Positions 18,627 to 48,989 of a stretch of DNA of 64,000 nucleotides are shown here, in pieces (position 1 is the first letter of the stretch; every line of letters begins with the position of its first letter). The notes beneath the pieces are model-generated. The model worked only from the letters and a program-made list of their open reading frames with translations, did not search any database and was not told the DNA's origin. Both the position numbers and the translations under genes were made by a program. The DNA lies in NCBI GenBank assembly GCA_029834535.1, contig JAQMWT010000113.1:1-64000 (forward strand), in the 5' to 3' direction. Source of the stretch: Chrysophaeum taylorii (taxonomy: Eukaryota; Sar; Pelagophyceae; Pelagomonadales; Pelagomonadaceae).

Positions 18627-18659
18627 TTGTTGATAAAAGACTCCACCGTCGTCAAAAAG

Positions 18660-24425: not shown

Positions 24426-24928
24426 TGCAAGCTGGGGGATATATCGCCATTACAGCTAGAGTGGTGCTCCATGTGAAAGATAATTACTACTTTATCGAGG
24501 CTTTCTGCTTTCATGCCGACAAAAGTAGTAGTTTTTCTTGTGGCGCCTTCTTCCACCTCTTATCCTGGGTGGAATTTTAAGCAGCGCCTAAATTCTAAGA
24601 AGCTTGGTACGAAGCTCTCGGCTACGATGATGATACCCAGAGGCACCACACTAGAGATAGAAAATTTGAATTAGGGTTAGTACCCCCCTCTATTCTAGGT
24701 TAGTTCCCTTAACTTTTCCACCCTTTTGATTTAAGAAAACGCCGTGTTATTCACACCGGCTGTTCTCGTTGTAGAGATAGAAACGAGAACAGACTGCCAC
24801 TGCTCTCGACTCTGCACACACAGAAAAAATTACTCTTCTCTGGGTATTGTGTACCAGTCCCGGTATCAGCAGAGTATCAGGATTTCCAGAAGAGTATCGC
24901 TCCCTTACGTTCCTGAACCCAGGCAAAA

Positions 24929-25950
24929 ATGCCAACCAACCAAGAACTTCAAAAAGAGTTGGCCACCCAGAAGACCGAACATGCTCAAGCCATGAAAGAC
25001 CAAGAAGCTCGCATAGAGGCAAGGCATCAAAGGGGGATGCTAGCGCAAAAACAATACAACGACGCTCGCTTCCAAGCTCAGCGCAACTCAACGCCGTGCT
25101 GACACCCCCTGCCGTTGCTGCTGCGGCTCCGCCTCCCACTCCGGCTCAACAAGATCCCAAGACTAAGGTTAACACCTTTAGTGACCCACCTAGCGCCGTC
25201 CTCAAGTCAATGGACAACGCGCAAGTCACACCCCAAATGCTTTCGTTTCGCGTCATGCACTTGTTCGTTGAACATCTGATGCCTGAAACAGGCATAACTC
25301 AATACTTCCTGCAGGGCCTCTACACGTGGGAATCCGTCTTGCTCGGATTTAATGATCTCGCTGACGCTCTTCTAAGCCACTGCATCCAGGAATACGACAA
25401 GGACCCCGATCACCACGCTCCATCAGGGAACACACAAGATTTCCAAGGCCGTTACGTCTACTACAAAGGCGTCTACCGAAAGTTCGGCAAACACTTCCTG
25501 GAGAACGTCTACGAGCCCAAGCTCCAAGAACTTAAAGACCAAGACAAGGACACGACCAATACCACAAAAGGAAAGATGTATCCGATCACCCAACCTCACC
25601 TCCAAGGAAAAGAAGCCGACTTCATCGTGTACCTCCGCGAGACCGTGCACCCCCTCTTTCGCCGTTTCCTGCATGCCGGTAGCGACTCCGTCAAGCACCC
25701 AGCATACGACGAAATTGACGCACTCGGATCTTCCCATCCGATAGGACTCGAATTTGTGCTCAAAGTTCGCCTAGCACTTGACAAGCACACGGGCCAGAAC
25801 CACGTCCACCATACGCATTATGTCTATGATGCCTTCCTGGACACGCCGTTCTACCCGGAGATCCGTGCGCCTGCTCACTACATTGATTACATGCGCCATG
25901 TCCACCAGCAACTGCGCCAGATTACTAGCGATTCCTCCATCAAACTCTGA
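24929..25950 (+). pseudogene. gag-like region of copia element 1
   Basis: A long open stretch of charged, helix-rich protein (MHLFVEHLMPETGITQYFLQ, DFIVYLRETVHPLFRRFLHA, HYIDYMRHVHQQL) occupies the gag position ahead of the protease. No zinc knuckle was recognised. The gag-like part of the second element is different in sequence. Assigned from position and character. Confidence 0.6.
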
Positions 25951-27070
25951 CAAGATCCTCCAAGAAATACACCAAATACTACGGTTCAAGTACCCTCCAA
26001 GTTTGCTCGACTCCCGCGCCCCATCGCACATCAAAGGTTTCACGCGTCTTGCCGATTGTTTGCGTACTCCAAACGACTCCTTGTTACTCGACGAAGACAA
26101 GGAAGCGATAAACCATCTTCTCAAGCTCATCGCCCGGATTACAGTCATCTCCACCTTCGAGTCAGCTTTGTCGCTGATGGTTGCCGACGAAGCCTGTGCC
26201 GCCAACCACATCTTGCTCAATCAGGCACCAAGCATTACGATACCGAAATTCCCGACTTCATCCACCATTTCACCCAGAGTCGCAGATTTTCTTTGTGCAA
26301 CTTACACTCCAGTCAAGTCACCCACGAAGACAAACTCGCTGCACGGATGCAATGGACCAGGCACCGAAACTTCATTAATTGATGGTGGTGCATCATTCTG
26401 GTTCACTCGCACAATACAAAACTTTGTTCCCCGAGTCCATACGCCGGATTCCCGAACACACCATTCATATGGGAAGAGGCACCCTTATCAGCCACTTCAT
26501 CGGTGTCAAACCGTTGTACTTGCAGGCTGCAGGCCTCTCCTCCAAGGAAACACAAGACTCAACCGGTTATGCATTATATCTCGTCTTTCTGGTCGTCCCG
26601 CAATTCCGAAAAGGTCTCCAGGTTATAGCGACATCTCAGCTCAAAGCTCTGCATGTACAGGCCACCGATACACCGCTGCCCCACGAACCATATCTGTACG
26701 AACTTATGAATACATCAACCGAAGATCCGCACGATTATAAGACTCTTCTAGGAAAAACCGCCGTAGTCCTCGCCACTCGCAAACCTATTGGCCTCTTGTC
26801 CCTGCCGTCCCATCCAAAGCATTTACAACTGTGCTTAGTTTACACACAAGAAAACGAATGTCACTCAAGGATGAGATTGCACACATCACACAGAATGTCG
26901 CCAAGACACGCTCTAAATCGCAAACGCTTGATTTCGCCAAGCTACAGAATCATTCCCTGTTTTAAACTGAGCTCATCAACCACCTCCCGCGTACTGTCGT
27001 CCAATACGCATTCACTGGCTCCGCGGCCCTCTCTGTGCAAGCACAACCCCCTCCGCTCCAAACAGCCATT

Positions 27071-28660
27071 ATTGCAGGTGGACTTCACCAAGAAGATTTT
27101 GACGTTTTTCGCAAACGATTCGCTAAACGCCTTACTGTCGTGGTCACCTGCGAAATCAACCCTATTATGCGCACCCGTGCGCAACAACTCTTTCCGCACG
27201 CTCAGCACTATGCGGACCTAAGGAAGCTCAATGCCGCATTACAAACCGGCAACATACGCCTACCTCCTCTCGACTTGGCAGTCTTCACATTGCGCTGTCA
27301 ACATCTGAGTGTAATGAAAGAATACGACGGCTATGCCGCTCCAGTGACCGCCGACCTTTTTGTCAAAGAACAAATCCGCTTTGTTCGTTGCACGCTCCCG
27401 ACCTACGCCATTGTCGAGAACGTACCTCCCAACCCCCGAACTCATCACGAGTATGCTCAACTCGCAAAAGGTTATCAGCGCTTAGGCTACTTCCGACACT
27501 CCGGTGTCTACAATGCCTCTGCTTTTGGTGACGTCATCAGCAAGACACGCTATCTCGCTGTCTATGCCCGACACCCGCTCACGGGCTATAACCTCGAGAA
27601 AACCGCTTCTCCTTGGTTAACCTCGCCTCCGAGCATGGCTCCTCTCCTGGACCCCCGTCACACCATCCCTGACGATCTCTGGATCGCCAACCCCGCCCTT
27701 CGTGGCACAGTGCCCCGCTCCACCTTGGACCTACTACCAGTACAAGGCCACCTACTCCTACAAGCCCGCCAACGTCTCGAAACTCTCGATTTCCGAACAC
27801 GCACGCATCTGTCAAATGCTTGCACGGTTCAACAAGCCCTTCACGGACCTAGGTCTCGACGCCAACGGCACTCCCTACGCCGCCATGACCAATATCTCCT
27901 ACCTCTTGACTTTCACATTGCTGCACAATCACTTGTCGCAACATCCGACTCTGGCCGCTTGGAACACACTACGCTGCTTTCATGCCTCCGAGTCCCAACG
28001 TGCTTATCACTTGGATGGAGCCATCACCGGCACTATCGCTACTGCCATTGCCTGTGGCTACTTCCCGCGCGCCTCCCTCACCCTCCATACCAGGCCCCCT
28101 CGCATCTTGGACTGTTCTCACGAACCCGCAGTCTTTTCCCCAACGCACGCCTTTTCCCTGGATGTTCCCAAGGGCACCGCCTTTCTGGTTGTCGCCTACA
28201 CCACCTCCTTGGCCGCCGCTCACAGCAGCACGCGCCCCTCCACGTGGGTCCACTACATGAATCGCTCGCATCCCGGCTTTGCCGCGATCGACTCACGAGG
28301 GCGAAATACTCTCGATGACCCCACGGGACTCATAATGTCCAAAGCCCGCCCCACCTATGCGGACTACGTCGGCCACATCGGCGACACGCTTCAGAAAAGC
28401 ACCGAGTGCTACTCGGTCACTGGCTCGTACCCAACAAACACGAGCTACTCCAACGCCTTGCTGCTGATCTCTCCCAACCACATCCGCTATGCGACCCTCA
28501 ACGAAATCGCAAAGTTCGGACGCCACTCGGACCCGGAACTGCTTCGTCTCTTCCAGCAACACCCGCCGTACTTCGCGTTTAAGGCACTGGCCGACGCCGT
28601 CCCGCACCACATGCTGCAGGCAAAGTACAGCGCTGTCCTCGCACTACACGAATCACATCA
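27071..28660 (+). pseudogene. cytosine-C5 DNA methyltransferase-like domain of copia element 1
   Basis: Between protease and integrase the plus strand shows the ordered motifs of C5 cytosine methyltransferases: motif I-like AGGLHQEDFDVF (27.07 kb), motif II CEIN (27.15 kb), a motif IV region with a Cys-Gln pair (DLAVFTLRCQHLS, 27.28 kb), motif VI IVENVPP (27.41 kb), motif VIII-like SKTRYLAVYAR (27.54 kb), then about 300 residues that would be the target-recognition part, motif IX-like IRYATLNEIAKF (28.49 kb) and motif X-like LADAVPHHML (28.59 kb). The length of about 520 residues suits a complete domain with a large recognition region. In live enzymes this domain methylates cytosine in DNA; whether this fossil did is not known. 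It is much diverged from the domain at 42.5-44.2 kb. Confidence 0.75.
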
Positions 28661-28951
28661 TCACGTGAACCTTCACATCGAATGGGCAACGATACGCCAT
28701 GGCATCCCCAGCCCCGGAGACGTCAACCAGGTCGCAGAATTCTTCTCAACCATCTCCAGCCGTCTCGTAGCAGAGGAGGATCTCAACCTCACCTCCCTCT
28801 TCAATGCCGTTGCAGATGCTCACCATGATGCGATCCGCAAGCCGAGCAAATCGAAAAACTCGAGACGCTTCTTACCGAGGCAACCGTTGCCAAAGTCCGA
28901 GTTGACAAGCGACCCAGTCCCCCTAGCGCGTCGACTGCCGCTCTGCCGCCC

Positions 28952-30046
28952 TTGCACAAGCCCGGCACCATTCAGCACGCCAAAAGAGTGCTTTTGGTCA
29001 CGCGCTGGCACCGCATCCATCACCAGCAACCCGAGATTCTTCGCCGCACGATTGCCGCGAATGTAACGAATCTTCGCCCAGGTGATGATCGGTATCTGCA
29101 AGGCTGCAGCGAATGCAAGCGCTGCCAATCGCATGTCAACTTCCGTCACAAGAACACCTCCTGGTCACAGGATGAACTGGCCTATGCTCCTGGCCAACAT
29201 CTCCACATGGATGTCTCATACCCGAGCATCAGCAAATGCTATGGTGGCTTTCGTTACATCATGCATTTTGTGTGTATTATCTCAGCACACAAGTGGGTGT
29301 ATTTCCTGCGGAAACTAGGCGCGCAAGACGTTCTGGCTGGCATCCTCTGTGTGGTCAATGTGATTAAGGTCGAATTCGATGTCAATGTGAAAATCATCTC
29401 GTCTGATGCATTTTCAACTTTCCGCTCCGAAGCACTCCACCCGCTCAAGGTGCAACTCGGTATCCAGTTTCAAATCATTGGTCGCCACCTACACCAGCGG
29501 AACTTCGCGGAAAACATCATCAAAGAAAACACCCGAGGCACTGTAGTTCGTCTCCTCAACCTGCGCAGTGTCCGCATCGAAGGAAAGCCCATTGCCGCCC
29601 AGTATTATCATCCATTTGCTCTGCTGCACAAGATCCAAGCCGACAATCAGCGCTCTCATGGACTGCCCTCGCGCACAAACATGACCTGCACCGTCCCCCG
29701 GCGCATCATGTCACCCATGGCACCGCTCTTGAAGCTCCTTCCCTTTGGCGAACCTGTCACTTTCGTCTATCCCCAACGCCACAAACTGGAACCCTCCAGC
29801 ATCCCCGCCTCCTATCTCACCAGCAACAACTACGTCCCCAATCTCCCCGGCACGGACCGATTTATCCGTGATGTTCATAGCTCCCTCCTGCTTGTACATC
29901 AGGGGCGATATGGAAAAATCATCACCTCTAACGACTTCCACGTTGATGCAGACATGCCAGTCAACCGAACAAAGAGATCGAACGGATCAAAGCACTCGCA
30001 CAGATCCCAACAGAGGCACCGCAAGAGGACCCGCTACCAGCTATAA
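28952..30046 (+). pseudogene. integrase region of copia element 1
   Basis: Contains a His/Cys zinc segment (RWHRIHHQQ...GCSECKRCQ) followed by the catalytic core, with an Asp in LHMDVSYP and a second Asp in IISSDAFSTF, then an Asn/Glu-rich helix region, as in the D,D-35-E cores of Ty1/copia integrases. Confidence 0.75.
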
Positions 30047-30317
30047 GCGAACAGCAAATGCCGGAAGCTAGACAGGAATCGCATAATGAGGGCGAGACTC
30101 ACGATGACGAGCAGGGTGACAAAACTCACGATGACGACGAACATAAAGAACCGGATCCAACCTCCACTGCTGATCCAAGTCCAGTCAGCGACGAGACACC
30201 CGAACAGGATTTTTCTTTCCTCAACCGGCCACCTCCGCCGGATAATAGCATTCCGATGCTAAACGAAAAGATCGCCTAGAGGCTGTTCTCGGCGATTCAG
30301 GTTTTACCCCAGTTCTC

Positions 30318-32637
30318 GTGCATCGCAACCAGAGTGATAAACTCAAAACAGATCTCAAGGACGAACGCGGATTTCGCATCCCCAAAGGCCAACTCTATAT
30401 TGTGAAACGTGTCGATGATGGAAAACTCTTCACCAGACGCATTATCGCCTCCGAGTATGGTCGCAACTGGAAATACCAGCAGGAGCAATCCACGGCTCGC
30501 GCCACAGCCAACATGTCCAGCACATTTATGTTCCTCATCAGTGTCAGCGCTCTGCACCAGGGCCATGCCGCCAGCATCGCATATGATCTCAACATTAGAA
30601 GGGATGCTAAGCCACCAAATGATGTCCCGAAAGGATGTCTCCTAGCTAATACCACACAAGACTATGGTATCGTGGGCGGCACCGCACTGGATCTGCAGAG
30701 AGAAACCGACGCAGAACTCTTGTACGTTGACTTCCCAAGGAAGCCGTACCACTCATCTGTATTGGTCGACCATCTGGACAACGACAATTCTGTTCTCGAG
30801 AACTATGTGTGCCATGACGAACTGTCACCGGCAGAGTATTATGCGCGTCAATGGAACCAAGAATTCTGTTGTATAACCTCCTCTCTTTTATGGGACATCT
30901 CAGCGCATCAACACTACCACCTAGCTTCTCGTCACAGACACGCCTTCATGCACGACTCTGGCGAACTCGGACACCTCTTTCTAAGCCAAAGTGATCCGAA
31001 TCAAGACATTCTCCAAGAAGTCATGGACTATGACTTGCAGCACATCGACCATGTCGTGTTACAGCTCGTGGCTGCTGAAGATATTGTCTATGAGCCTGAA
31101 AAGAATGTCGAACTCAAAGAACTCAGCGAAGAAGACAAGTTTAAGCACATTGCTTCGATTCGCAATGAACTTGAAGGCTTATGTTCCAACGGTGTCTTTA
31201 AGCTTGAACCTTTACCGCCAGACCGTTCGTCTATCTCGACGAAACTCGTGCTGAAGATCAAGTATTTTGCTGACGGCACTCCAGACCGCTATAAAGCTCG
31301 CCTAGTCGCCCGAGGTTTCTTGGCACATGTAGGCATTGACTTTTATGCCACATCTTCCCAAACCGCAATGCTCGCCACCAACCGGTTATTGCTCGCCATC
31401 GCTGTGAAGCACAAGCACCCGGTCGCGCACGCGGACATTCTCCAGGCGCTCATCCAATCGGCACTCGACCGCCCGGTATTGATCGACTTCCCTCGAGGAA
31501 TACATGTCTCGCAAAACCGTGTCCAGCAGATACAGAAGAACCACCCAGAGTCCAAGCTCGCTTTTAGACTCGTCAAGGTTCTCTATGGCCTCAAACAGTC
31601 CGCTTTGTTATGGAACATTAAGCTCGACTCTTTCCTTCGACAACATGAGTTTGAACGCTCACAAGCCGATACTTGCCTCTATATCAGTTGGGATCGATCT
31701 GTCAACCGATGGGCTCTCCTATCCGTCTCCGTCGATGATCTATTGATCACTGGCACCAACACTGCCAAAATAACATCTCCTCGCACCGCTCTGGAGAAGG
31801 AATATGGCAAAGGCACTTGGCATGACAACATTAGATCCTTCCTTGGTATCGATGTGCATTACAACGTCTCCGCTGGTCATCTCACTATGAATGTAGCAGC
31901 GAAGATCACCAAGATGCTCGCCGAGCATAAGCTCAACCTCCATGCTATGGACGTCCCCTACTCGGACATCCTCACTCAACAGCCTTCAGCTAAGTTTCTT
32001 TCTGACTTGGCTCCTACATTAGAAATATTACGCAAGCACTTTCCTCACTACTGTGGCACTAGTATTCACTTGTCTGTCACATGTCGCCCTGATATAACCT
32101 TTTACTTCGCTTTTTGAAGGGTACTCCGCATGATTCTCTCGACTATTCATCCGACAGCCCCTCTATTACGCCCTTTATTCCGCATCTGATCACAAACTAT
32201 CCTGAGTTGCATCACCTTCGTTCGCCCATTATTTGTTTTACTGATGCCAGTTTCGCTGATCGTTCTGACCCTCGTTTAAGATCTCATTCTGGTGCATGTA
32301 TTTTCGTCTTTGGCAATCTCGTATTCTGGTCTAGCAAACGCCAAACTCTTACTGCCAAAAGCACCATGGAAGCTGAACTTATCGCCGCCAGCGCAGCCGC
32401 CGATGAGTGTCATTGGTTCCACAAACGCTTCTCCTCTCACCCTTATTTATTTTCGTGTGATCAAGCTCACGCTACTCCCCTGCTTATTGATAACGCTAGC
32501 GCGTTACACGTCGCTAATCACCCTAAAGTCAGTGCTCCCTCTCGTCATATCAACTTACGAGCATTTCGCATTCGTGACTACCAGGCCAATTCGGTCATTC
32601 GACCTCTCTGGTGTCCTACTCGCTACCAGGTCGCCAT
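30318..32637 (+). pseudogene. reverse transcriptase-RNase H region of copia element 1
   Basis: Typical copia RT words: KYKARLVARGF-like DRYKARLVARGF, HADILQALIQS, VLYGLKQSALLWN and the catalytic VSVDDLLITG. RNase H follows: GACIFVFGNLVFWSSKRQ, STMEAELIA and ECHWFHK. The region stops at about 32637 where unrelated inverted host sequence begins. Confidence 0.85.
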
Positions 32638-33332
32638 TGGGGTGCGATTGGTGGTGTTGACGTACGAATCGGAGGAGCGGAAGGGTGGCGTAGGCGACGG
32701 GGACCGTCGCGATTTCCCGGGCCTCTAGGACCCCGCGCTGATAGTTTCGGTAGGCCTGCTGCTTGAGGGTGCAGATCGTGTCGTCGTGCTCCGACTCGAC
32801 GTGGTTTTTTTAGATCGGGTTACTTGTCGAATTTCGACCATTCGACAGTTCTGCCGTAGCAACACGTCCAGCCCGTATCCGCCGTGCCGACCATGATCCG
32901 GTTCTGTGACCGGAAGACGTCGAGGCAGTTCCTGGCGACAAAGACGACGAAGACGCGAGGGGCTCGATACCTTGTGCAAAAGGTGCGACCAGCCCGGCCG
33001 TTGGAGGACAACGCTCGCCTTATTCTTGAGGGTGCCTTGGAAAGTTGTCTTTGGGGATATAACTTGCACCGATCCGTGAGCTCTACAGTTGCCATCTCGT
33101 CGGCGTGCGCGTAGCCGAGCGTATTAGCGAGAGCGGCGGCAAAATACGTTGTACCTGATCTTTGCGGTCCCGAAACAAGAATCGTCGAATATTTTACCCA
33201 GTCAACCGAATCCCACGCGACGGTCTCGTAGGCGAGCGGAAAGGCGCGCTCCATCGTCGTGGCGATCATCTCGGAGCGCGACGCTTCATCGATGAAGACG
33301 GCGGTGGCAACAACGTTGAGGAGGATGAACAT
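32638..33332 (-). pseudogene. sulfotransferase-like gene, copy 2 (broken)
   Basis: ATG complementary to 33330-33332 starts a signal-peptide-like leader (MFILLNVVATAVFIDEA), then KYSTILVSGPQRSGTTYFA (5'-phosphosulfate loop) and VFVVFVARNCLDVFRSQNR (3'-phosphate site), very similar to copy 1 at 18.66-19.41 kb. Compared with copy 1 it lacks about 10 bases near 33083, which shifts the frame. An extra base near the RAPRVF block restores it about 120 bases later, and another shift near 32818 ends the long frame at FDK. It is therefore a host pseudogene. Its 3' end is joined to the RNase H end of copia element 1, so the two were brought together by an insertion or rearrangement. Confidence 0.7.
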
Positions 33333-34723: not shown

Positions 34724-35620
34724 CTAGCCGCAAAAGTCGCGGATCTTGGGATGCTTCTCGACGAACTGGTCATAGAAGCAAGTGTGATTCGCTTTGAAAA
34801 AGGCGGCGACATGGTCGTAGTTCGCGATGACGTTGCGGAGGTCGTCGTCGGTGATCTTGACGGAGCGCTTGGTCGGCCTGACGGTGTCGGCGGACATCCC
34901 TATCCACTTGAAGAGGCGGCGGAGCTCGGCGTCGACGTCGAGGCAGAGAGCCTCGTAGGTAAGAAACAAAAAACCTTCGTGGCCTAGAGTGGTGTTCAAG
35001 GCGAGCACTTCGCGGCGCACAAGACTGGTAAAACTCGCGGCGGAACTCGCGAGTTTCTGTGGATCGACAGTCATTAGGCTGTGATTTCGTGCGAGGCAGG
35101 CTTCTTGCGCCGGGCCCGTCTTGTAGACAAAATGGCTGCCGCACTCTTTTTCGAGCCAATTCGCGCGAATTGAGCTCACGGTCCACTTAATCACGTTGGT
35201 CCGCGCGTAGAAAACTAGGAAAATCCCGGCGGTCCACGTAGGGGCCGGCATCTGCAAGAAGTCGGCGTGTCGTTGCCCGAGCGAAATGCCTATCGCTCGA
35301 CCCTTCAAGTCGCACGCTCGCGCGACCGGTTCGCAGTGCTTCGTCGGGCAAGCCGGGCTTTTCTGGAGCGCGCGCAGCCGCCCTGCCGTCCAGTGATAAT
35401 TTTGGCAATATTCGTGCACGAACCACGCGAACCGCTTATCGTCTTCGAGCGTGCGCGCGAGATACGTCGACCCAGTTCGTGGAAATTTCAGCACCACCAC
35501 GACTTTGTTGGGGGATATATGCTCTTCCTTGTTCGTCGTGAAACTCTTCTTCGACATAGGCTTGGGGGGCGCATCGGCGGCCACCACAACCATCAGGAAA
35601 AGGGACAACAATATCATCAT
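34724..35620 (-). CDS. secretory-pathway sulfotransferase-like protein (298 residues)
   Basis: ATG complementary to 35618-35620 begins a signal peptide or anchor (MMILLSLFLMVVVAADA). Residues about 38-58 are the 5'-phosphosulfate loop (NKVVVVLKFPRTGSTYLARTLED) and residues about 133-155 the 3'-phosphate site (FLVFYARTNVIKWTVSSIRANW), in which the R-T-N-V-x-K-W-x-x-S pattern is typical of Golgi carbohydrate sulfotransferases. A GFLFLTYEALCLD strand and the conserved LRRLFKWIGM helix follow. Such enzymes transfer sulfate from PAPS to glycans; the acceptor here is unknown. It ends with a Cys-Gly and is intact. It is only distantly related to the two copies at 18.7 and 33 kb. Confidence 0.75.
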   Translation of the reverse strand: MMILLSLFLMVVVAADAPPKPMSKKSFTTNKEEHISPNKVVVVLKFPRTGSTYLARTLEDDKRFAWFVHEYCQNYHWTAGRLRALQKSPACPTKHCEPVARACDLKGRAIGISLGQRHADFLQMPAPTWTAGIFLVFYARTNVIKWTVSSIRANWLEKECGSHFVYKTGPAQEACLARNHSLMTVDPQKLASSAASFTSLVRREVLALNTTLGHEGFLFLTYEALCLDVDAELRRLFKWIGMSADTVRPTKRSVKITDDDLRNVIANYDHVAAFFKANHTCFYDQFVEKHPKIRDFCG

Positions 35621-35765
35621 CGACTACAACTGTGTGGCATTTTTCTAGAAAACTTTTTCTAATTAAAAAAAAAAAAAACGGGCGTTATTTAATATAAAAG
35701 TGGAGGCATCTTGCAGGTCAAGCACGGTTCTAAGTGTCAACAACGGCCATCGAACGGATCGCGGA

Positions 35766-36166: not shown

Positions 36167-36479
36167 TGCAGAGCATTTAGCAAGCAGTGGTAAGTCACCT
36201 GGGAAACCATCCCGTCTCATCGTGAACGTCTGGAAAGGTTAATTCGGGGAATGGAGCTTATGTTCCCTATATCCTCAGAACACGACAGGCGGCATCTAGA
36301 ACTACACGAGAAAGGTTAAGTGTATAGTGCTACATACCTCGGGGCGCGCTAGACCATGATGATGAGCGTAGGCACAAATCAGAGGACTATTTGATTGTGT
36401 AGAAAGGAAGAAGAAGGGTAAGGAAGAGATCACGTTCTCAACGGATGGATAAGGGTAAGAGGCAGCAGATTTCTCTGCA
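36167..36479 (-). repeat. truncated LTR of copia element 2 (downstream copy)
   Basis: About 313 bp that match 48677-48989 with few differences. Further pieces of the same sequence occur in tandem units 2 (52635-52960 plus 54042-54140) and 3 (57790-58093 plus 59159-59257). It is truncated on the left at a Helitron fragment. Confidence 0.75.
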
Positions 36480-36729
36480 CCCCCTCGAGATGTCCTAAGC
36501 GCAAGGTGCGACTGTAGAGCATCTCTTGAGAAAGATGATGATGAAGAAGAAAGAAAGAGAAAAAAGGAAGTAATACAGTCTTGATGATCACAGAGGTCAC
36601 ATACGAAGCATCAAGAGTGTAGAAGGGTCTTAGGACTTGGACTTGGTGGAGCTGAGAGTCGATTTGACCCTTTTGAACAGAACATTAAGAAACACAGATA
36701 CAACAGACAGTGAGTTAGGATTGTTAATC

Positions 36730-38270
36730 ATCGTCAGCTTCTGCTGTAAGGTGGTGAACACCAATAGCTGAACGATGTGGTGCCAAGAGAAGGGTGAGTG
36801 CAAGTAGAGCATTCAGTATGGATAGCGATAGAGAACCTAGTTGAAAGGTGTCCAGTTGGTTTTCCAAAAAAAGGTTGGACTTGGCGAACGAAGAACGAAG
36901 ATAGAAGAGTCTTCAGATTCACACGAGAGCGGACGGAATGCTCTGAAGCATGAGAGCAACTTGTCACGTAGATGAAGGAGGTGATCGTCCGGGGAGGAGT
37001 AGTTGGTAGCATGTTGATCATGAGCGGTGAGTATTAAGCGAGACAACAGCTCTGTGATCTTGTACAGTGTATAAGTAACACGTGGGTGTTGGCTGTAGGA
37101 AGGAAGAACCGGTTCTCCAGGGTGGTGTTTCCTGGAGTTGGTCGACTTGTTGGCACAAAAAGTCGGAATCAGCAAGCGAAGCAGAAGGCGTAGGTATCGG
37201 TGGCGAAGATATCTCCAGAGTAGCGTCTAGCGTGGAGTGTGAGTAGTTTAACGACGTTTCGGTCAACGTTAAAAAAAAAGGAAGGGGTGCAGGAAGCCTT
37301 AATGTTCTGCCTGAACATAAGTGTGGCCGAACATTACATTCCGGAGTAATAGCGGTTCTGTATCATCAGAGGACGATGCGTAGTTGTTAAGATGTTGTAC
37401 ACGCGATCAGATAACAGTATGAATCACATGGTGGTATTTGGTGGCTTGAACATATAGCCTGAGTTTTACGAGCTTGTGTTTGCTCGAGTGTTACAAGAAG
37501 GTTAAGATGCTCCAGGTGCATCTGAGTAATAAGTGGAGTCTGTGGCTGCATCGGTTACTGATAAGACTAAGTGAGCAAGTGACGAATGTTGCGATTTCTG
37601 GTCAAGAGCATATGTAGCTCCTTTGGCAAATGATACGCGCGCATACGTTAGGTTTTATGGGCGCCTGATCGGTGTTGTGACAAGCACAACAAATGTTAGC
37701 GGTGATAGTTGAGATGGGAATATGACCATTCTTCTTGTGGTCATCTGTGTTAAGGTGACTCAGCACATCAGTGGGGAGTTCACTAGGTGCTTGTGACTTC
37801 GAATTATATGTGGTAGAAGCAAGAAATGTAGGCTGTCCTAAGTCGTTGAGACACTGCGTACAATAGGATGACGGAATGAAACGTTCACGTTCGGGGCATC
37901 TGTAGCAGCCAATAGAAGTAATAGCAGGAGCAGCTTCCCAAAATGTAGTAATGGGTAGGCGCATAGATATGGAGGTCGTAAGTTCCACAAACAGTAAAGA
38001 GTCAGCAGATTCATATATCGAGTTGAGTGCCGTAGAGATTTCCGCTCACATAACAGAAGAGAGAAAGGGCGTAGCAGGAGTACGGAAGCTCTCAGAAAGA
38101 GAGAATCCTCGTTCAATCAGGGTAAAATCCATGTTGAGGCCATCGCTGGTGTCGGTGAGACAGTAGCAGCCTGGGAGGTAGTAGAAGTGACAGTGGTTAT
38201 GGTTTGTCGCTTTTGAAACAACTTGGGAGAGATGCCACGGCCAGGGATAGTTTAACGACGTTGCGGTCAC
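36730..38270 (-). other. coding-like DNA downstream of RNase H in copia element 2, with Cys-rich motif
   Basis: Copia elements usually have little beyond RNase H, but here about 1.5 kb of minus-strand DNA still reads like protein in several frames. One piece (about 37.9-37.65 kb) has a Cys pattern GCYRCPERER...YCTQCL...CCACH that could bind zinc. Two copies of the T-x-x-S-L-N-Y sequence (37244-37264 and 38248-38268) lie in it. It may be an additional protein of this element; no family was recognised. Confidence 0.4.
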
Positions 38271-38285
38271 TAGAGTTAGGTATCT

Positions 38286-40613
38286 TCAATCCTGTAAAGG
38301 ATTGTGGTGAGAGGCATGATGCATACCGAGTAGAGAACGAAAAGTGGAGAACTCAGCCGCACGTGGTTTTGTAAAGCCATCCGCCACGTTCAGATTGCCG
38401 GGAACATGATGGACTCGTATTTTCTGAAGCGATATGTACTCACGAATCTTAAACCATCTAGTCGACAGTGCCTTGGATCGAGAGGACCCATCTGGGTAAT
38501 TAGAGGTGTGAACAGCGGCAGCATTGTCAGACAAAAGAGGTAGGCTTCTGATGAAGCGCATATCTTCAGCAATTGGGTTGTCATTGTCATCAAAGTCAAC
38601 AGGGTCAGCGGTGTTCTCACCATTAGCATTATTGACGTAGAAGGTGGGGTTGACGACAAAGGAGAGTTCCAACAGCAGCTTGCGTAGCCAAACAGCTTCA
38701 TCAGCACAAATACTGAGGGCAATCAACTCAGCTTCGTGAGTTGAGCAGGAGACAATCGGTTGAAGTTTGCTTTTCCAACCAATAAGGCAGTTGAAAAGAT
38801 AGAAGACAAACCCGGTGGTAGATTTCCTATCTTCCTGTGCTAAGGAAGGGGCATTGTCAGCGTCAACCATGGCAACTAAGGGGTCAAACTGTCCAGTAGA
38901 TACATCCTGTGGTTGGTAGTCGACCACAGTGGATAGATCAATTCGATTAGCGGAGACAGTGCGAAGGTGAGCTTCAATGGCATTACCTTTAGGGTGAAAC
39001 CAGAGGCGAAGTGAGCGGTTTTCCGGCTTCTTGAGGTAGCGAAGTAAATGCTCTAGCATTTGGACGTGAACATACGTAGGTGCATGCATACCACGCGAAC
39101 ATCTGCCCAAGGCTTGCGAGAAGTCAGGTCTGCAGGCAACTTGCATGAACACCAGCTTGCCAAGGAGGGTGGCAAAGTGCGAGTTGATGTACAACTCTGT
39201 TTCAGTGCTGGGAGTGCCATCTTTATACTTGAAGGACGATGACATAGGATATTTAAGCGGGGTCAGTTGCTGCAAGACTGGGTGATCAGCGAAGAGTTCA
39301 TCCAGCTTGGCTTGCACATCCAGAGAAATGGAGCCGTCAGATGTGCGACACACACGCATGCCTAGGAGGGTATGGACAGGTTCAAACTGCTCTACAGCAT
39401 ACCGTTTGTGGAGGGCATCCTGTAATTCAGTACGAAGAGGGTCGTCATTGGACACAATAACAATGTCGTCTACAGACAGACTGCATACGACGAACTTAGC
39501 ATGTGCGGATACTCGAGCATATAGGCAAGAGTCCGAATGCAGGCGTTTGTAACCAAGGCTACGGAAGAAGCCGTCTATCTCTTTGTTCCAAAGGGATGGT
39601 GATTGCCTAAGTCCATAAAGTGACTTCAGCAGTTTCGGTAGACGTCGGCCCTTGTACTTAGCGTCATCGGGGTCGATAAGCTTGATGCCGTCTGGTAACT
39701 GAACATAGACATTGGCATCGATGTCAGACTGAACGAAGGCGTTCGGGACGTCTGCATGGTAGACAGGCAATTGCTTGTATGCTGCAATAGCTAGTAGTAC
39801 CCGGATTGCGGTCATAGTGGCCATGGGGCTGAAGGTACCAAAGAAATCGGCGCCAAGAGATGCTAGGAAGCCACGTAGTACAAGGCGAGCCTTGTGCTTA
39901 ACGTATTTGCCTGCAGAGTCTGTTTTAATCTTCAGCACCATCTTGCTGTCAATAGGACGAGAGACACCGTCGGGTAAGGAAAGTTTGAAGCAGCCAAAGC
40001 GGATAATGTCGTGGAGTTCCTTGGCGATGGCCTTGAGGTAGGCGTGCCTGTTTTCAGGCGACAAACCGTGGAGGCACTTAAGTTTATATTCGTCAATGGA
40101 AACGTCCGCTTCTTGGACCTTATATTCGTCAGGACCAACAGTGGCTGGTGAATTATAGTTTAGCGACGTTGCGGTCGAGGCAGTGTGCGCAACTTCGGGA
40201 TAAGCGGAAACAGCGTCAGTAGGAGTAGTAGGGGCAGATTCCAGTTGGATATGGATAGTAGGGTCGGTACGTAAGACCTGGGTGATAAACTCTGTAGAGA
40301 CCAGAAGGTATTCCTCCAAGTCAGCCAGAGATGCAGAAGTAGCGCCAAACTCGGATGAGTTGTGATCAATAAAGCTGGTCGGCGCCAGGTACGTAAGTGC
40401 ATATTGTAAGGAAGAAGTGCCGAAGGCAGCAGCGTGTTCAGTGAACGCAGATAAAAGGGGCTGAGGAATAGGGCACGTAGGTGAACCATCAGCAGTTAAA
40501 AAGGTTGCAGCTGGGATGCTGGATGCGCACTTGGCGTGGGCGAAGTAACCATCGACGTGCGGGTAGCGGGCAAGTAAGTCAGTGCGCAACGGGAGAAGAA
40601 GACGAGCTAACAA
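38286..40613 (-). pseudogene. reverse transcriptase-RNase H region of copia element 2
   Basis: A long open stretch with RT words KHKARLVLRGF, HADVPNAFVQSD, KSLYGLRQSPSLWN and catalytic LSVDDIVIV. RNase H words follow: DRKSTTGFVFYLFNCLIGWKS-like, STHEAELIALS, DEAVWLRK, LSDNAAAV and the C-terminal NVADGFTKP. This is a typical complete Ty1/copia RT-RNase H. Confidence 0.9.
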
Positions 40614-40899
40614 CGCATGTTCCCCTCTGAGCAGATAGCAGACCAGAGGATACCACCACGGAGATGAAGGGCGGAGAGGGCGGGAGACTTGAACGTAAGA
40701 AAGTGGTGGCGAAGATCCCAGCGGAAATCGGCGAGCTTGCCACCAGCGGCTTTGTAAGCACCAATAGTAGACGCTTGTAACCGGGCTCGGATAGTTTTCA
40801 TAGAAGTGGCCTTGCGAGTGTTAGGCTGTTTGGAACCTGGGACAAGAATGAGGTCATCTTGTGCAAAAAGGTCTTTGTAAGAAGGAAGCAAGGGCGGCG

Positions 40900-42087
40900 G
40901 TGACATAGAGCCAGATTCGTCGGCGGTAGCGTCAGAAGATGGAGAAGAGGCCGGAGTAGGGGACGAAGAAGGAGGAGCTGAAGGAGGTGGGGAGTGCCCC
41001 CTCTGAGGATGAGGAGTCCTTGTCCCCTCTGAATGACATGGTCTTGGATAGTGGTGTGGGGTGTGAGCGAGAAAGGCGCGGAAGGAGCGTGTGGCGGAGG
41101 AGCTAGTTCAGGATCAGGAGTAGGATGCTGCAACATGTAGAGGAATTGCAGCTTGGACGAAACACGAATTTGTCCGTTTTCAGGGTTGAGGACGACGTCA
41201 GCGAGATGGTCGACGCGTGGGGAGACGAGCGGGTTTTGTGCGTTGGCGCAACAGAGATACAGATATTTGCGGCGGCACGGTTCCCACTTGTGGTGTTCAT
41301 GGGGCTCCAATAGGAGGTAACATTCAGCGCCAAAAATCTTGAGCATATCGTGTTGGGGAGTGCTGAGTTGGTTGTAGAGTAGCTGTTGCGGACTCAGAAT
41401 AGCATGATGAATGCGCTCGAGCGTGGCGTTCGGGAGAAGGTTATAGCTTTGAACGGTGTGTATCACCGCCCATGGGAACATGATAGCGGGTTCCACGATC
41501 TTGGCGCCACGATAGTGAGCATTAAGGAGAGAACGAAGGCGAGTTGAGGAGGCGGAGGCGATGAAACCGATGGCAGACTCAACTTCAAAGTTAAAGTGGT
41601 GCATGTACGGCGGGAAGGCAATGAGTTGAATGCCCTTATCGACGCGGTACGGGGAGGTAATGTGCTGGCTAAAGTAAGGCTTGAATGCATCGGAGTAGAG
41701 GGTGCGCATGTGCACATTGAGTTGTGTACGACAGAAGTCATACACAAAATCCAGAGCTTGAGTGAACTCCGTGGCGTTGGTGGTGCGTGTAAAGTACACC
41801 AAGAGAAATTTCGAAATGAGTTCCTTGAAGACGATGATATGTGTGAAGCCTCCCCATTCGGATGGGATGGTCACATAGCCGCCGTCGCACGCCCAGACTT
41901 CACCGGCTTTGTGGGTTTGCTCAAAGAAGGCTTGGTCGCATTGAAATGCTTGTGCGGGTGGCGCTTGTTGTGTGCGATGCAGTCGGTGCATAAGTCGCGA
42001 TATATATGGTATGTCAGAAGCAGAGAATCCAGGGCGAGCAAGTACGTTGGGGGCCTTGGCAGCGACGTTGTCGGGGCAGTGATGCAC
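40900..42087 (-). pseudogene. integrase region of copia element 2
   Basis: Catalytic-core residues in order: Asp in WACDGGYV, Asp in TLYSDAFKPYF and Glu in FEVESAIGF, the D,D-35-E pattern of retroelement integrases, followed by YNLLPNATLERIHHAILSP and FGAECYLLLEPHEHHKW, the region linking to the C-terminal domain of copia integrases. Confidence 0.85.
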
Positions 42088-42519
42088 CCGGTGAAAGCGA
42101 TTAGCACGTTCTTTGGCATTGAGATATTCGGTGGATCCGTGTGCGAGGACTTACGAAGAATTGGATGAGCGGGAATGTGCCGTTTGCGCCGAACATCGAA
42201 CTTGAGTTCGGTGTCTAAGGCAGTGGAGGCGGTGCGTCGTCATCCTGGTGCACAGCAGGGTCACTTGGAGGTGCATCCTCATTATCACGAGTAGCGAGAG
42301 TATCTTCGTAGGACGACGATATATAGTTTAACGACATTTCGGTCAAGCAGTTGCTGGAAATAGACATCATAAAAGATTGTGCCAAAGACAAGGTATCTGT
42401 GCTGCACGTGGTGGAGGCTTGGTCAACGGTCATGAAATTGGATACATAGGATTTCTTCGTCACGGCAGCAGTATGTTGGAAGGTAGGGTCCAACATAAGG
42501 GATTTAATATCGGCGACGA

Positions 42520-44205
42520 TGAGCGAAAGGTGCTTGTACAGAGTGCTGTACGTACCGGCAGGCAGAGCATTGCTGAGCATGTCACAGCAAAGGTCATGGC
42601 GTAGAGACAAGAGGAAAGATTCCTGTTGTTTGGTGTGGTTGTTAGCACGAATCAACTCCGGTCGAGTGGGGTAGCGTAATTTCCCGTTGCGAGGGTCGAG
42701 TAAAATAATATTGGCATACCCTCGGACGGTTGGCAATGGAGCAAGCATTGAGTGGATTTTAGAGCCGAGTTTGCGGTCACTTCCACGAAGGTACCCTATA
42801 TAGCGACTATGAGATAGGTGATGATCTTCCAGAGCAAAAGAGAATCCTTGTAATCGAAAGAGTTGTCGGTGGCCTTGTAGGTAAGGCAGCCAGGCATCAC
42901 GAGAGCGCATCTGGACACGAGGTTTTGTATGGCGGTGCCATAGGTGGTAGCGGAGCCAACTTGGGGAAGGGCTTGGACTATCCACAAGTAACCCATAAAC
43001 GGCTCCAGATATATGGACCTGTCCCGGTCGCGGGGGATGTCGGAAGCAGTGAACGTATACGTGCTCCCAAAGGCGTTGATGGGAGTGGAGTTTTTGTGGT
43101 GGCGTTCTCTATGGTGAGGTTGCCGTCGGAATGGTGGCCACCAGTTAAGAAGTAGGAGTTGTGTGATGTTGATGAGGTTGTAAGTAATAACCTGTGTGAC
43201 GGTTGGTTAGTTTCGAAAACGGTTATGTAATAGGACACAGGAGTGGGTGAGTTAGTAGTAAGCTTGCAAACACGTTATAGAGGATTGTAAAAATCTTGAC
43301 GTGTATAGGATGTGTTGCATTGGGTAATGGCTCCATAGAGGAGCGTTTAAAGCACAACTGATGGTAAGTACACTCGGATTGAACAGAGTGAGTACGTTGC
43401 TCGTGAGCCTGTTGTGAGTGAAGGCGAAGTAGTAACATATTGAGGGATTCAAGGTCAGCCATAGTAAGCTGAGCAGAACCTGTGCGAGAGTAAGGTGCAA
43501 ACGTTTTAGGAACGGGTATATATGGAGGATCGGGAACACCCGGATCCAGTCTTTAGATATGTGGTTAGGTAGCCAAAGGCGCTTGGGAATAGCTTGTAGA
43601 TCATCCACGATCTTTAGGAAGGGGCGTGGATGGAGGATGGGCCACGATGATAGTTTAATTGGTCCAGTAGAATATCTGCGTGCGACGCATATCCACCTTT
43701 CTCTAGATTGGTAGTCGCCACATAGGTAGGTCGGGAACCTATCAACAACATCGACACAGTAATCAAGGGTAGTATAGATAAGGTTGGCCACTGTGATGTG
43801 GTCTTGATGACAGTACTTATGCGGAGGCGTCATCTCAGCCAGTAGTACCAAGGGCTGGAGTAGCTTGATGACAGACAGCATGCTGTCGAAAAGAGAATCG
43901 TCCAGCAGACTGTATAAGTCTTCTGACTTTTTTTGTTTTAGTAAATTCCTGTTTGTGCAGGGCGGAGTGATCTCAATTATATCACAATAGAATGTGCGCC
44001 TTTCCTCGGGTGAGATTAGGTGGAGATGGTTAATAAAGGCGGGGAGAGATTCAAATAATAGTACAGTAGGAAAACGGTGGCGTAACATACGAACAAGCGT
44101 ATCATCAGACTCAACAACAACTTTTACATTGATATTTAAGCCTAAGTCATTAGTGGCTTGAGACAGGAACGCCGGAGTTGACAAACCAGAACAAAGTAAC
44201 ATGAC
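42520..44205 (-). pseudogene. cytosine-C5 DNA methyltransferase-like domain of copia element 2
   Basis: On the minus strand the motifs of C5 methyltransferases appear in order: motif I-like MLLCSGLSTPAFLSQA (44.20 kb), motif II VVVESDD (44.11 kb), acid after motif III, motif IV IIEITPPCTNRN with a Pro-Cys pair (43.97 kb), motif VI LLAEMTPP (43.84 kb), motif VIII GDYQSRERWICVARR (43.71 kb), a long variable region, then motif IX-like LRYPTRPELIRA (42.65 kb) and motif X-like LSNALPAGTYSTL (42.54 kb). Spacing from motif I to VIII is close to that of bacterial M.HhaI, recalled from memory. The same order protease-methyltransferase-integrase is seen in element 1. In live enzymes the Pro-Cys supplies the nucleophile. 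The T-x-x-S-L-N-Y copy at 42324-42344 sits between this domain and integrase. Confidence 0.8.
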
Positions 44206-44599
44206 AGAGGGTTTGCGGAGATTGAACTCTTGTGAGAGAAAAACTGGCCGTGCGAGTAGTCAACTCAACGGCTGCGTATTTTGCTGAACAAATTTGTTCT
44301 GTTTCCGAAGATTGAGAACCAAAGGGCGAATCCACGGTCTGGTAAAACTCGTTGGAGTAGGTAATTGTAATATGCTAGTAGCTCCCTGTTTTCATGGTAT
44401 CGCTTGAGGGGAAATGCAAGGGAGCGAAGTTCCAGCCGCTTGTCGCGCGCGATGTTGTAAGTGATACAAGGGAGAGCGGGTAAATTAGCTGCGACATAGT
44501 GTATGGGTATACGTACATCTTTGTCTATGCGGCTCGTGACAGCGCTGAGCTTTGGCTCAGCTCGATCGTTGAACACGGTGGTAAGATTGGTCTGGTTCC

Positions 44600-44960
44600 A
44601 TTCGAGCATGCTCAGGATAGCGAGATGTCGGTCATGCACTGGTTGAAGACATAAAGCGAAGTCGATCTTAACGTAGCCAACTTGTGGATGATCTGGTAGG
44701 GGAATAACGATGTTGCGTGTTAACATCATGTGTGATGCCCGTTGTTGTCCTGTTGCCGTCTGAATAACAATCGGAGCGTATGTGGAGTCCAATGGAATTA
44801 TATGATTGGGTATTGCGAAATCGTAGGTGGACATCAATGAGATGGTAGCACAAGAGTCAAAATATAGAAAAGAGCAATGTGGAGGGACACTGTTTACCTT
44901 CATGTAGTTGGTGAGGAAGGCGTTTTCCGAATGTGGGCAAGTAGTGGAGAGGCTGGCGGT
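44600..44960 (-). pseudogene. aspartic protease region of copia element 2
   Basis: The word LYFDSCATISLMS at about 44.85 kb has the D-S-x-A-T form of the retroelement protease active site, followed by strands GQQRASHMMLTRNIVIPL and HLAILSMLEWNQ where the flap and second half would be. Confidence 0.65.
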
Positions 44961-46116
44961 AAAGAAGTTCTTCAGCAATAACAGATTCGTTGGAATAATG
45001 ATCGGTTGAACAGGTGGTGATGGTTCGTCAGCCTCATCAGCCATGCCGTGCTTTTCGTCAAATGACGATAGAGAAGTGTGATCGGCATCCCTTTTGGTTT
45101 CGGCTTGTGATGGTAGGTTGAGGGCAGATTGGACCTGTGAAGATAGCGAGGACAATAATGCTGGTGGTAAAGCCGAGATGGCGGAAGCGGTAAAGAGGTT
45201 AGACACAGTATTGGAAGGATTACCCTGTGTGTTTGTAGTAGGAGGAGTTGTTGTTGGGGTGGGAGCAGTAACGACAGTATGGTGTTGTGGCTCCACGTAG
45301 TTTAACGACTTTTCGGTCGAGGATAGATGAACGTCTACATCATAAATGATGTCTTCTGCAAACATGAGCTGTTCGTTTAGACGAAGTAAACTACTGTTGT
45401 CCTCAGTAGATGTCGTTGACAGGATATCGGCTGATTGTAGCAAAGTCTCAAATAACTTGTTGATATTCTGTTGTAGCTGAGCCGTGGTATCATTATCTGT
45501 CACATGCTTCGTGAGTTCGCTACACTGTTCTCGCAGGGTGTTTAAGGTGTGGTTTGTTCGATCTAATAATTTCATGTTAGACCGAGAGGACCTGTCAAAA
45601 GTGCGGGGGTAAATTGGACGGTCATGGGACTGTCCGGCAGTTTTCTTGGTGACGTAAGAATCACCAGGACGATAATACGATAAATCGCTGCGAGAGAAAG
45701 GCTGGCGAGCATCATTAGAGTTACGCAAGCGTCTAGCATTAAACGTGGAAGATGTACCAGGTTGGGACGAAGTGATGAAGGCGAGTGTGTTAGCAGTTTG
45801 AGTCAGACTTTTGTCCGATGAGTCCAAAGTATGTGTAAGTACTAACTTTGGCTTTGGTTGAGATGATAAACCTTTGACATAGGGTTGCCAAGAAACAGGG
45901 CGTTCTAAGCGTCTTTTGTTCGACCCATTTGATACGACATTGTAAAGGTCTAATGCGTATTCTAAAATGTAGCTTGGGTTGGTAGGGTGACACAATCGTT
46001 CAGCTTCTGGTACAGGTCGAGATGAAGATCGGGTTTCGTACATATAACACCAATCTACCCAACCACGATCATAACGGTTGTTGCTGGTATTATCGGCATA
46101 GTGCCGATGTATCTCT

Positions 46117-47121
46117 TCATAGATTTTTTCTGCAAAGAGTGCCAAAGTCGAATTGAAGGTCAGTCTCTTCCTGGTTAAGTTGGTAAGAGATTTGCCTAAA
46201 TGCTAGGACAGCTTCGATAAATACATGGACATACCAGTTAGGATTATAAACAACAGAGTTAAATTGCTGTTTCAAATAAGACACATCAGTAGTCGTAACA
46301 GACTCGTAGTGACTAAAGGCGATGAGCATAATAGCTCGAGCCTTGTTGGGTAAATAACTTTTGTTGTATACCTCATTGATGGCGGGCCAGGCCGCAAGTG
46401 CCGGTTTTCCAACACTTTCAAGATTGAAGTAAGTATGCAAGAATGTAGCGTACGTGTTCTGGTAGGTGTGCCAGTCAGCTGCAGTTAACGAAGACATGGT
46501 AACCGGGGCACGAACACGGGTGTCGAAAGCTAGTGCCTTCGGGTGCGCGCGATTTAAGATTCGTTCCTCTTCTAAGAAACGAGCATTGATTTCAGGACGT
46601 AATGCCTTGACTTCATAGTCGTAACAGACAGTAGTTAGCTGAGCTACTTCTGCATCAGGTAAGTGGGGGAAAGCTTCGTTGGTGAAATGCCATTCCTGAT
46701 ACTCAGGGGGCAACTCATCAACAGCTAAACGGAGATCAGCAGCCCTATCGGTCTTCCATTCCAGGAAAACGCGATCGAGAATTTGATTCCGGAGGATTTC
46801 GTAGTCCTTGCATGACCGAGTATATGCTTCATACGAGTCGTACTCGAGGAAAGCATCGGCATGACTGGACCGTAGTAATTGCTTGATATGCTTGATTTGC
46901 AAGGATACCTTGCGGTTCTGAAGCTGAAAGCGGTTGCCCTCATTAAGAAACTCAACTACAGGAGCTTCGAGCTTCAATATATCCGCACCTGTGATCGCCT
47001 TGGGTGCGGCTCGTACTGCGTGTTCTGCCATAGCAGTTGACGGGGAACCTGTGGGTTCAGTCACGCAGTTGACAAAGTCTAGACATTCTAAGGGGGTCTG
47101 TCTATCGGTGTCTATGTACAC
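46117..47121 (-). pseudogene. gag-like region of copia element 2
   Basis: An open stretch of about 334 codons, helix-rich and charged (LKLEAPVVEFLNEGNRFQLQ, TYATFLHTYFNLESVGKPAL, KARAIMLIAFSHYESV), lies first in the element and ahead of the protease. It fits a capsid-like protein by position. Confidence 0.65.
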
Positions 47122-47436
47122 TCATCGATTTTTCGATGGAAAATGTGTCTATATGACGACTGTGCAAGCTGTGAGTCCAGAGTAGTGTCGCTAAGCGTAG
47201 TCGCTCAGGCAGCTGGTTAGTTTTGGTGCTCTCAAGGAGCTTGTTAAGCATTGCCATGTAATGTACGAGTGGACGTACCCAAAATATTCCATAACATGTG
47301 TGCAAGAGTACAGGTTAGCCAATTACACACCCATCAACATTAACATGGCAATACGATGCTATGAACAGGTGCACACAAGGTTACACGATCACGTGTGCAA
47401 AAAGATATTATATACAGCCCAATGGTAATGGCGATA

Positions 47437-48564: not shown

Positions 48565-48989
48565 TATTGACAAGCGTGTCACATGTCGAGGCTAGGTCGG
48601 CGCGGTAACGACCCAATACCCATAGGTTACGTGCATGTTGACACATGGTTTCTCAGGGACCCGCCTGGGCCGATAACCTGCAGAGCATTTAGCAAGCAGT
48701 GGTAAGTCACCTGGGGAACCATCCCGTCTCATCGTGAACGTCTGGAAAGGCTAATTCGGGGAATGAAGGTTATGTTCCCTATATCCTCAGAACACGACAG
48801 GCGGCATCTAGAACTACACGAGAAAGGTTAGGTGTATAGTGCTACATACCTCGGGACGCGCTAGGCCATGATGATGAGCGTAGGCACAAATCAGAGGACT
48901 ATTTGATTGTGTAGAAAGGAAGAAGAAGGGTAAGGAAGAGATCACGTTCTCAACGGACAGATAAGGGTAAGAGGCAGCAGATTTCTCTG

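Follow-up and report, generated by a model that had tools for sequence, protein, structure and literature searches.

The 64,000-nucleotide stretch of Chrysophaeum taylorii DNA analyzed here (the window, on contig C113 of the 70.8-Mb, 697-contig assembly that we searched) contains two copia-type retrotransposons, one on each strand. We refer to the minus-strand element as E2, to the window's other element as E1, and to a third family in the genome as E3. These three related copia-type families carry a homologue of C5-cytosine methyltransferases upstream of the integrase. A protease-like part precedes the methyltransferase in E1 and E2; that side lies outside the E3 sequence that was read. Positions of the elements and their parts are given in Table 1.

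Table 1. The two elements of the window and their parts
Feature	Position	Strand	Remarks
E1 coding part: gag-like, protease-like, methyltransferase, integrase, reverse transcriptase	24781..32728	+	frameshifted
E1 methyltransferase domain	27065..28616	+	frameshift near 27.63 kb
Whole E2 element	36167..47436	-	11.27 kb; bounded by genome-wide matches
E2 ORF1, first part, gag-like	46120..47121	-	open frame; gag named from position only
E2 ORF1, second part	44268..46202	-	protease-like word DSCATISLM at 44832-44864, by eye
In-frame TGA followed by CTA, methyltransferase frame	44260..44262	-	at the same place in 33 of 36 E2 loci, window copy included
E2 ORF with methyltransferase motifs I-VIII	43255..44259	-	frame correct up to about residue 243, frameshift beyond it (window copy)
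Motif I, LLCSG	44167-44202	-	
Motif II/III, VVVESDD	44101-44121	-	
Motif IV, DIIEITPPC	43957-43983	-	
Motif VI, LVLLAEMTPP	43822-43851	-	
Motif VIII, GDYQSRERW	43693-43719	-	
E2 ORF with methyltransferase end	42218..43108	-	motifs IX-X at 42551-42685
Motif IX, LRYPTRPEL	42653-42685	-	
Motif X, LSNALPAGT	42551-42583	-	
E2 integrase	40801..42150	-	weak Pfam rve (E 0.0019) and SH3_retrovirus (8.4e-5), both below cut-offs
Integrase D, D, E words	41866-41895, 41671-41700, 41563-41595	-	by eye
E2 copia-type reverse transcriptase	38289..40820	-	Pfam RVT_2, E 5.2e-42

The limits of E2 emerge from matches across the genome. With a query from the 5' end, the best 40 of 307 candidates lie on 40 separate contigs and begin at query positions 1-8, mostly at 5 (position 47436). 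With a query from the 3' end (best 40 of 2914 candidates), 39 main rows stop at query positions 434-443, mostly at 434 (position 36167); the window's own match was left out, and six extra rows are short fragments. The 3'-end query, which also included repeated flank, drew these 2914 candidates versus about 300 for the 5' end. A blastn comparison of the element's ends within the window returned no repeat, and the longest exact word common to the 5' 337 nt and the 3'-side 2.4 kb is 10 nt. Ends that are sharp genome-wide, together with the failure to find an LTR in the window copy, are unusual for a copia-type element. The terminal 311 nt of E2 (36167-36477) recurs upstream of the element at 48679-48989 in the same orientation (97% identity), with a less similar occurrence near 52749 (75%).

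All three families are assigned to the copia class by an RVT_2 reverse transcriptase with the integrase upstream (RVT_2 at 5.2e-42 in E2, 3.5e-42 in E3 and 1.6e-38 in E1), so their backbone is not of the DIRS, LINE or Gypsy type. The rve match is weak and under its cut-off in each. For E2, Pfam gave no match at E<=1 in the first part of ORF1 and nothing significant for a protease in the second part. RNase H, which would be expected at the end of the reverse transcriptase from position alone, has no match in that ORF.

An earlier note, made from the letters of the window, had proposed that a complete C5-methyltransferase domain with its motif words in canonical order lies at 42520-44205, between the protease and integrase of this element. 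Translation places motifs I, IV, VI, VIII, IX and X in collinear order on the minus strand, the strand of gag, protease, integrase and reverse transcriptase; the proposed span closely fits that of the motifs (42551-44202), and the order of the ORFs, together with RVT_2, agrees with a location between a protease-like part and the integrase of a copia-type element. All the main motifs are there, but the window copy is frameshifted and its pol is spread over several frames, in contrast to an open copy. The order of the motifs is canonical; two of the words are not: motif VI reads AEM rather than ENV, and motif X SNA rather than GN. We assigned the motif numbers by eye; the profile comparison and the E1/E2/E3 alignments described below support them. 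The E1 domain at 27065-28616 goes unmentioned in the note.

Related copies are abundant in the genome. Queries with the respective domains returned at least 122 E2 matches at no fewer than 120 sites (best 120 of 1209 candidates; two sites with a second, split row), at least 152 E1 matches (150 of 466 candidates scored; some sites in two rows) and at least 149 E3 matches (best 149 of 999 candidates). Every one of the 120 listed E2 sites is more than 500 bases from each of the 149 listed E3 sites. Two contig pairs, C25/C521 and C10/C297, have matches at equal or near-equal coordinates and look like duplicates or two haplotypes; the counts for the three families, though lower bounds, are therefore also slightly inflated. 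At 65 of 150 listed RVT_2 places, the same strand bears an E2/E3 methyltransferase site 2.5-7 kb upstream, and at 0 of 150 it bears one downstream; the other 85 are not proof of domain-less reverse transcriptases, since both the RVT_2 and the E2/E3 counts are among the matches listed. At one locus (L064, C344:73500-79000), the 3' end of an element abuts, by eye, an E3 copy that starts near methyltransferase motif VIII.

Over motifs I-VIII, E2 and E3 are 50-53% identical. Two database proteins resemble them more distantly: P0001, a 392-aa protein from an MMETSP transcript, and P0002, a 269-aa ENA protein from a contig of 9613 bases. Each is 35-45% identical to E2/E3 (P0002 is 38-39% identical to the window E2 domain), and they are 57% identical to each other. 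A protein database query with the E2 alignment returned P0001 as its one relative, and a third search returned both; a query with the E1 alignment found no relative among 7997 candidates scored. Close viral relatives were not found in IMG/VR with P0001 and the E1 alignment as queries, a result that covers close relatives in that database only. P0001 and P0002, known as protein records alone, show that domains related by sequence occur in records beyond this genome.

The Pfam search of the E2 domain, which the earlier note had put forward as a check, gave a divided answer. The window E2 ORFs have no DNA_methylase match at E<=1, and two of six further E2 copies appear at E<=10, the better at E 0.0088; in the wider family, P0002 narrowly exceeds the cut-off (23 versus 22 bits) and P0001 falls narrowly under it (20.2 bits), while E3 of locus L063 yields nothing. 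Because the window copy fails Pfam, the identity of E2 is relational, and the case is carried by E1, P0002 and profile matches.

The E1 family fits Pfam DNA_methylase better than the E2 family does, and its C5-METHYLTRANSFERASE identity was reached by three routes: Pfam, NCBIfam dcm and Foldseek. DNA_methylase matches four of four E1 copies (best 1.1e-8), as does dcm (best 3e-8, under that model's own cut-off). In a Foldseek search with an AF2 model of the window E1 copy, the best 50 of 159 PDB rows at E <= 0.001 are all C5-methyltransferases (top 4.2e-8) and include HhaI, HaeIII, DNMT1, DNMT2, MET1 and DIM2; the model has a pLDDT of just 51.5, and motifs IX-X lie outside it. A PDB sequence search with E1 gave nothing significant, with one cytosine methyltransferase at E 0.036. 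The same search with P0001 also gave nothing significant; its one cytosine methyltransferase, at 0.49 among DARPin rows, was taken as chance.

A comparison of profiles connects E2 to this anchor. A profile of E2, E3, P0001 and P0002 matched that of E1 at E 1.9e-7 with 93.7% probability, a match that spans 204 collinear columns and has Pro-Cys, Glu and Arg in register; profiles from shallow alignments of E2 and E1 reached just E 0.032, and a reverse transcriptase used as a negative control gave 17 columns at E 0.16. Motifs IX-X, a segment missing from P0001 and P0002, align over one copy each of E1, E2 and E3 as R..(T/S)..E and NA(V/L/I)P, with the Gly of GN replaced, and BLASTP of E2 against E1 over the motif IX-X part plus integrase gives 1.6e-19. 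Chance occurrence of the motif words, a candidate explanation that we considered, is rejected by the E1 and P0002 Pfam matches, the 1.9e-7 profile link, the IX-X alignment and Foldseek, and is largely refuted.

That the domain is some other Rossmann-like fold is, on the same grounds, a very remote prospect. It would account for the missing Pfam match in the window E2 ORFs and for the absence of any match to NCBIfam C5-methyltransferase models in P0001, P0002, E3 and three E2 sequences. The E2 structure model, a poor one (pLDDT 53.6, from an alignment of 3 sequences), is ambiguous in the same direction: VIA-align ties DNMT3 and Rossmann dehydrogenases at equal Z. Its top Foldseek hit is DNMT3A/3L at 2.4e-4, a ranking and not a phylogeny, and we take its strand-helix order to be that of the C5-methyltransferase fold. 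E1, P0002 and the comparison of profiles all supply significant matches that speak against a different fold, as does the collinearity of the main motifs. The domain of E1, E2 and E3 is thus almost certainly a C5-methyltransferase homologue.

Searched with Pfam DNA_methylase, the genome has at least 57 matches (123 of 474 candidates scored). By eye, 55 of the 57 listed coincide with places found in the E1 search; the remaining two, C634 (DNMT2-like by eye; 4.1e-19) and C621 (DNMT5-like by eye; 7.9e-18), look like host genes. These also have the Pfam domain but are no near kin of the element domain: the E2-type profile meets them at E 0.047 and 0.0039, respectively, keeping motif IV in register; by itself, the E1 profile gives only short matches at chance level. 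At least 120 E2 and at least 149 E3 sites lie beyond the 57 listed Pfam matches, so Pfam-based DNMT counts may miss such copies.

We then considered whether the domain is maintained. Conservation and dN/dS may look better in our sample than over all copies, because L003-L020 of E1 had been retrieved through their Pfam match and loci L053-L062 selected for long open frames; the other E2 loci are the best matches to the window, and the E2 set is not random. Among the 36 E2 loci, the Pro and Cys of motif IV are present in 35 of 35 with letters there, the motif VI Glu in all 36 (as AEM), the motif VIII Gln and both Arg in 35 of 35, and motif I opens with a Met in 33 of 35. Of the 231 codon columns compared, 137 do not vary, and conservation averages 96% per column, which makes invariant catalytic residues weak evidence alone. 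In E1, Pro-Cys is found at 19 of 19 loci (a biased set, 18 having been fetched by Pfam match), and the motif VI Glu at 19 of 19 (as ENV, once ENA); motif VIII lacks the Gln and retains one Arg (SKTRY in many copies). The window's own E1 copy reads RCQ in motif IV, with Arg-Cys in place of Pro-Cys. E3 (L063), P0001 and P0002 retain the motif IV Pro-Cys, the motif VI Glu and QxRxR in motif VIII. The Asn of ENV is replaced in E2/E3, and motif X has Ser or Ala where Gly is expected. Conservation of the motifs across related copies, which the earlier note had named as decisive, was thus tested, and many copies in the genome keep them intact; with so many relatives, the motif set is not a product of chance. 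Retention of the catalytic Pro-Cys, Glu and Gln/Arg across E2, E3, P0001 and P0002 at 35-57% identity is the stronger sign of function.

Rates of substitution tell a similar story. The 36 E2 loci have a pooled dN/dS of 0.153; the median of 614 pairs is 0.179. The values for six longer E2 copies are 0.136 (motifs I-VIII), 0.274 (target-recognition part), 0.191 (motifs IX-X) and 0.262 (integrase), and 5 copies give 0.160 for the reverse transcriptase. The corresponding values for four E1 copies are 0.158, 0.157, 0.140 and 0.101, with 0.208 for the reverse transcriptase (3 copies). In both E1 and E2, the methyltransferase is under purifying selection about as strong as that on the reverse transcriptase. 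The presence of the domain within the polyprotein of at least three families, together with this constraint, speaks for a function in replication and against a mere passenger.

Selection could also preserve a catalytically dead scaffold that binds nucleic acid or helps to assemble the particle; DNMT3L, for example, is catalytically dead. The derived motifs (AEM in motif VI of E2, the missing motif VIII Gln of E1, Ser or Ala for Gly in motif X) are what such a history might leave, and with them activity may be altered or lost. We nevertheless consider a dead scaffold quite unlikely, since the Pro-Cys and the motif VI Glu are invariant in the sampled E2 and E1 loci, E3, P0001 and P0002. There is a good likelihood that the domain is catalytically active.

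How the enzyme might be expressed is suggested by a stop codon. In 33 of 36 E2 loci (all except L026, L035 and L054), a TGA stands in the methyltransferase frame 4 or 6 codons ahead of FLSQ, a word that precedes motif I; the following codon is CTA in 25 of these 33, and the frame is open for at least 150 codons upstream of the TGA in 26 of 33. The E3 copy at L063 also has an in-frame TGA upstream of motif I, with only 16 codons before it read. A C after UGA favours readthrough. These features suggest that the E2 methyltransferase may be the first domain of a UGA readthrough product. The Met that heads motif I would permit a fresh translation start there; no second conserved Met was seen by eye between the TGA and that Met in the E2 loci. 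The gag and pol of E1 lie in different, overlapping frames (400-2133 and 2097-7952 in L059), and the protease-like part and the methyltransferase share one frame. Open pol frames of 1691 aa (L053) and 1952 aa (L059) link the methyltransferase to the reverse transcriptase.

Given that the listings for this 70.8-Mb genome run to hundreds of matches, and that C634 and C621 alone look host-like among the Pfam matches listed (123 scored of 474 candidates), element-encoded enzymes might act in trans on the host genome, altering silencing or integration target sites and not mainly the element. Readthrough-dependent expression, as inferred for E2, would yield little enzyme, and we regard such action as improbable.

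Taken together, we place a probability of roughly 0.55 on the following explanation as a whole: the domain was captured once, long ago, has been kept by selection, and probably methylates the element's cDNA before integration. The capture would have occurred in a common ancestor of E1, E2 and E3. Readthrough of the UGA in E2, and perhaps E3, or frameshifting in E1 would then produce a limited amount of a gag-protease-methyltransferase-integrase-reverse transcriptase polyprotein, and the enzyme would be packaged in the virus-like particle alongside reverse transcriptase and integrase. Its presence in one polyprotein with these enzymes would make new cDNA the nearest substrate in the particle. 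After reverse transcription, it would most likely methylate cytosines of the new cDNA, which could then resemble host DNA or meet favourable chromatin at integration. De Mendoza et al. offer methylation of cDNA as their account of SymbioDIRS-Dnmt3 as well (accessible text of PMC5890265). For cDNA as the main substrate taken by itself, the odds appear slightly short of even.

A test for CpG decay among the 36 E2 loci shows no excess of CpG transitions (CG 35/1612 copy-sites, CA 58/3454, CC 41/2614, CT 78/3246), so that self-methylation at CG followed by decay is not favoured. Element stretches have CpG observed/expected ratios of 0.89-1.05 and host stretches ratios of 1.18-1.46, and the two also differ in base composition. 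DNMT2 methylates tRNA, and the chief rival to cDNA is RNA: acting as an RNA m5C enzyme, the domain might methylate the element's genomic RNA or its tRNA primer in the particle and thereby help packaging, priming or RNA stability. The absence of CpG decay among E2 loci would fit, as would the activity of C5-methyltransferase folds on RNA (DNMT2, DNMT6; accessible text of PMC12344493), and RNA methylation has been raised as a possibility for SymbioLINE-Dnmt (de Mendoza et al.; accessible text of PMC5890265). An RNA-specific feature was not found in the domain, however, and the domain travels with integrase and reverse transcriptase, where DNA is also present; we judge an RNA substrate unlikely.

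Carriage of DNA methyltransferases (DNMTs) by retrotransposons is already known. As far as the accessible text of de Mendoza et al. (2018; PMC5890265) extends, it describes such enzymes in DIRS, LINE and Gypsy elements and bears out the earlier note's statement that retrotransposons of dinoflagellates and charophytes have captured them. One parallel there is KnitGypsy-Dnmt3 of Klebsormidium nitens, which, like E1 and E2, has a C5-methyltransferase inside the Pol frame and under purifying selection (Ka/Ks < 0.2). It differs in its Gypsy backbone and DNMT3-clade enzyme, whereas E1, E2 and E3 are copia-type with a very divergent enzyme, which in E1 and E2 lies between the protease-like part and the integrase and in E2 behind a UGA. 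SymbioDIRS-Dnmt3 and SymbioLINE-Dnmt of Symbiodinium likewise amount to hundreds of retrotransposon DNMTs in one genome, and SymbioDIRS-Dnmt3 domains methylate CG in yeast; their backbones are DIRS (tyrosine recombinase) and LINE, in contrast to the RVT_2 copia type found here, and the abundant Copia elements of Symbiodinium are described there as being without any DNMT domain. Work cited in PMC5890265 reports DIRS elements with Dam-like methyltransferases, which also give an element its own DNA methyltransferase, but one that is adenine-specific and structurally unrelated to C5 enzymes. One sentence in the accessible text of PMC12344493, citing the 2018 paper, places some members of DNMT3 within LTR Copia and DIRS elements; that text gives no architecture for a Copia carrier, and the carriers in the cited paper are of the Gypsy, DIRS and LINE types.

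In the literature that we searched, from which subscription journals and preprints were mostly absent, and in the accessible text of PMC5890265, PMC12344493, PMC9998398, PMC3145265 and PMC12477816, no copia element was described as carrying a DNMT at this place in its polyprotein. What appears to be new here is the copia superfamily, the position between protease and integrase, the very divergent enzyme, its presence in three families and the in-frame UGA of E2. A broader proposal, that these elements belong to a copia-type clade present in more than one species, in which a C5-methyltransferase is obligatory, UGA is read through, ordinary LTRs are lacking and the element modifies its own nucleic acid in the particle, strikes us as doubtful.

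With such a domain in a copia-type lineage, the question of what a retrotransposon methylates becomes testable in another superfamily. Cytosine methylation is a main weapon against transposons, and here a copia-type genomic parasite seems to own a tool for marking DNA or RNA.

The window has several other repeats and genes. A 248-nt dispersed repeat at 24174-24421 (+), picked up by the E1 5'-end query, occurs with about 97-98% identity at 39 other places (best 40 of 1087 candidates). On the minus strand, 17535-17834 is a fragment with 36% identity to the stretch of E2 pol that immediately precedes the integrase core, and the ORF that contains it (17487-18203) has, by eye, a likeness to the E3 family. 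A repeat unit of about 5.1 kb, which holds short GTGAACTTACTGG-type tandem pieces, makes up many stretches of 84-100% similarity at 47.5-63.8 kb and also near 16.8 and 36 kb. Host-like ORFs at 3624-5288 (-), 18585-19358 (+) and 34724-35623 (-) appear by eye to be of Kelch/BTB type and sulfotransferase-like.
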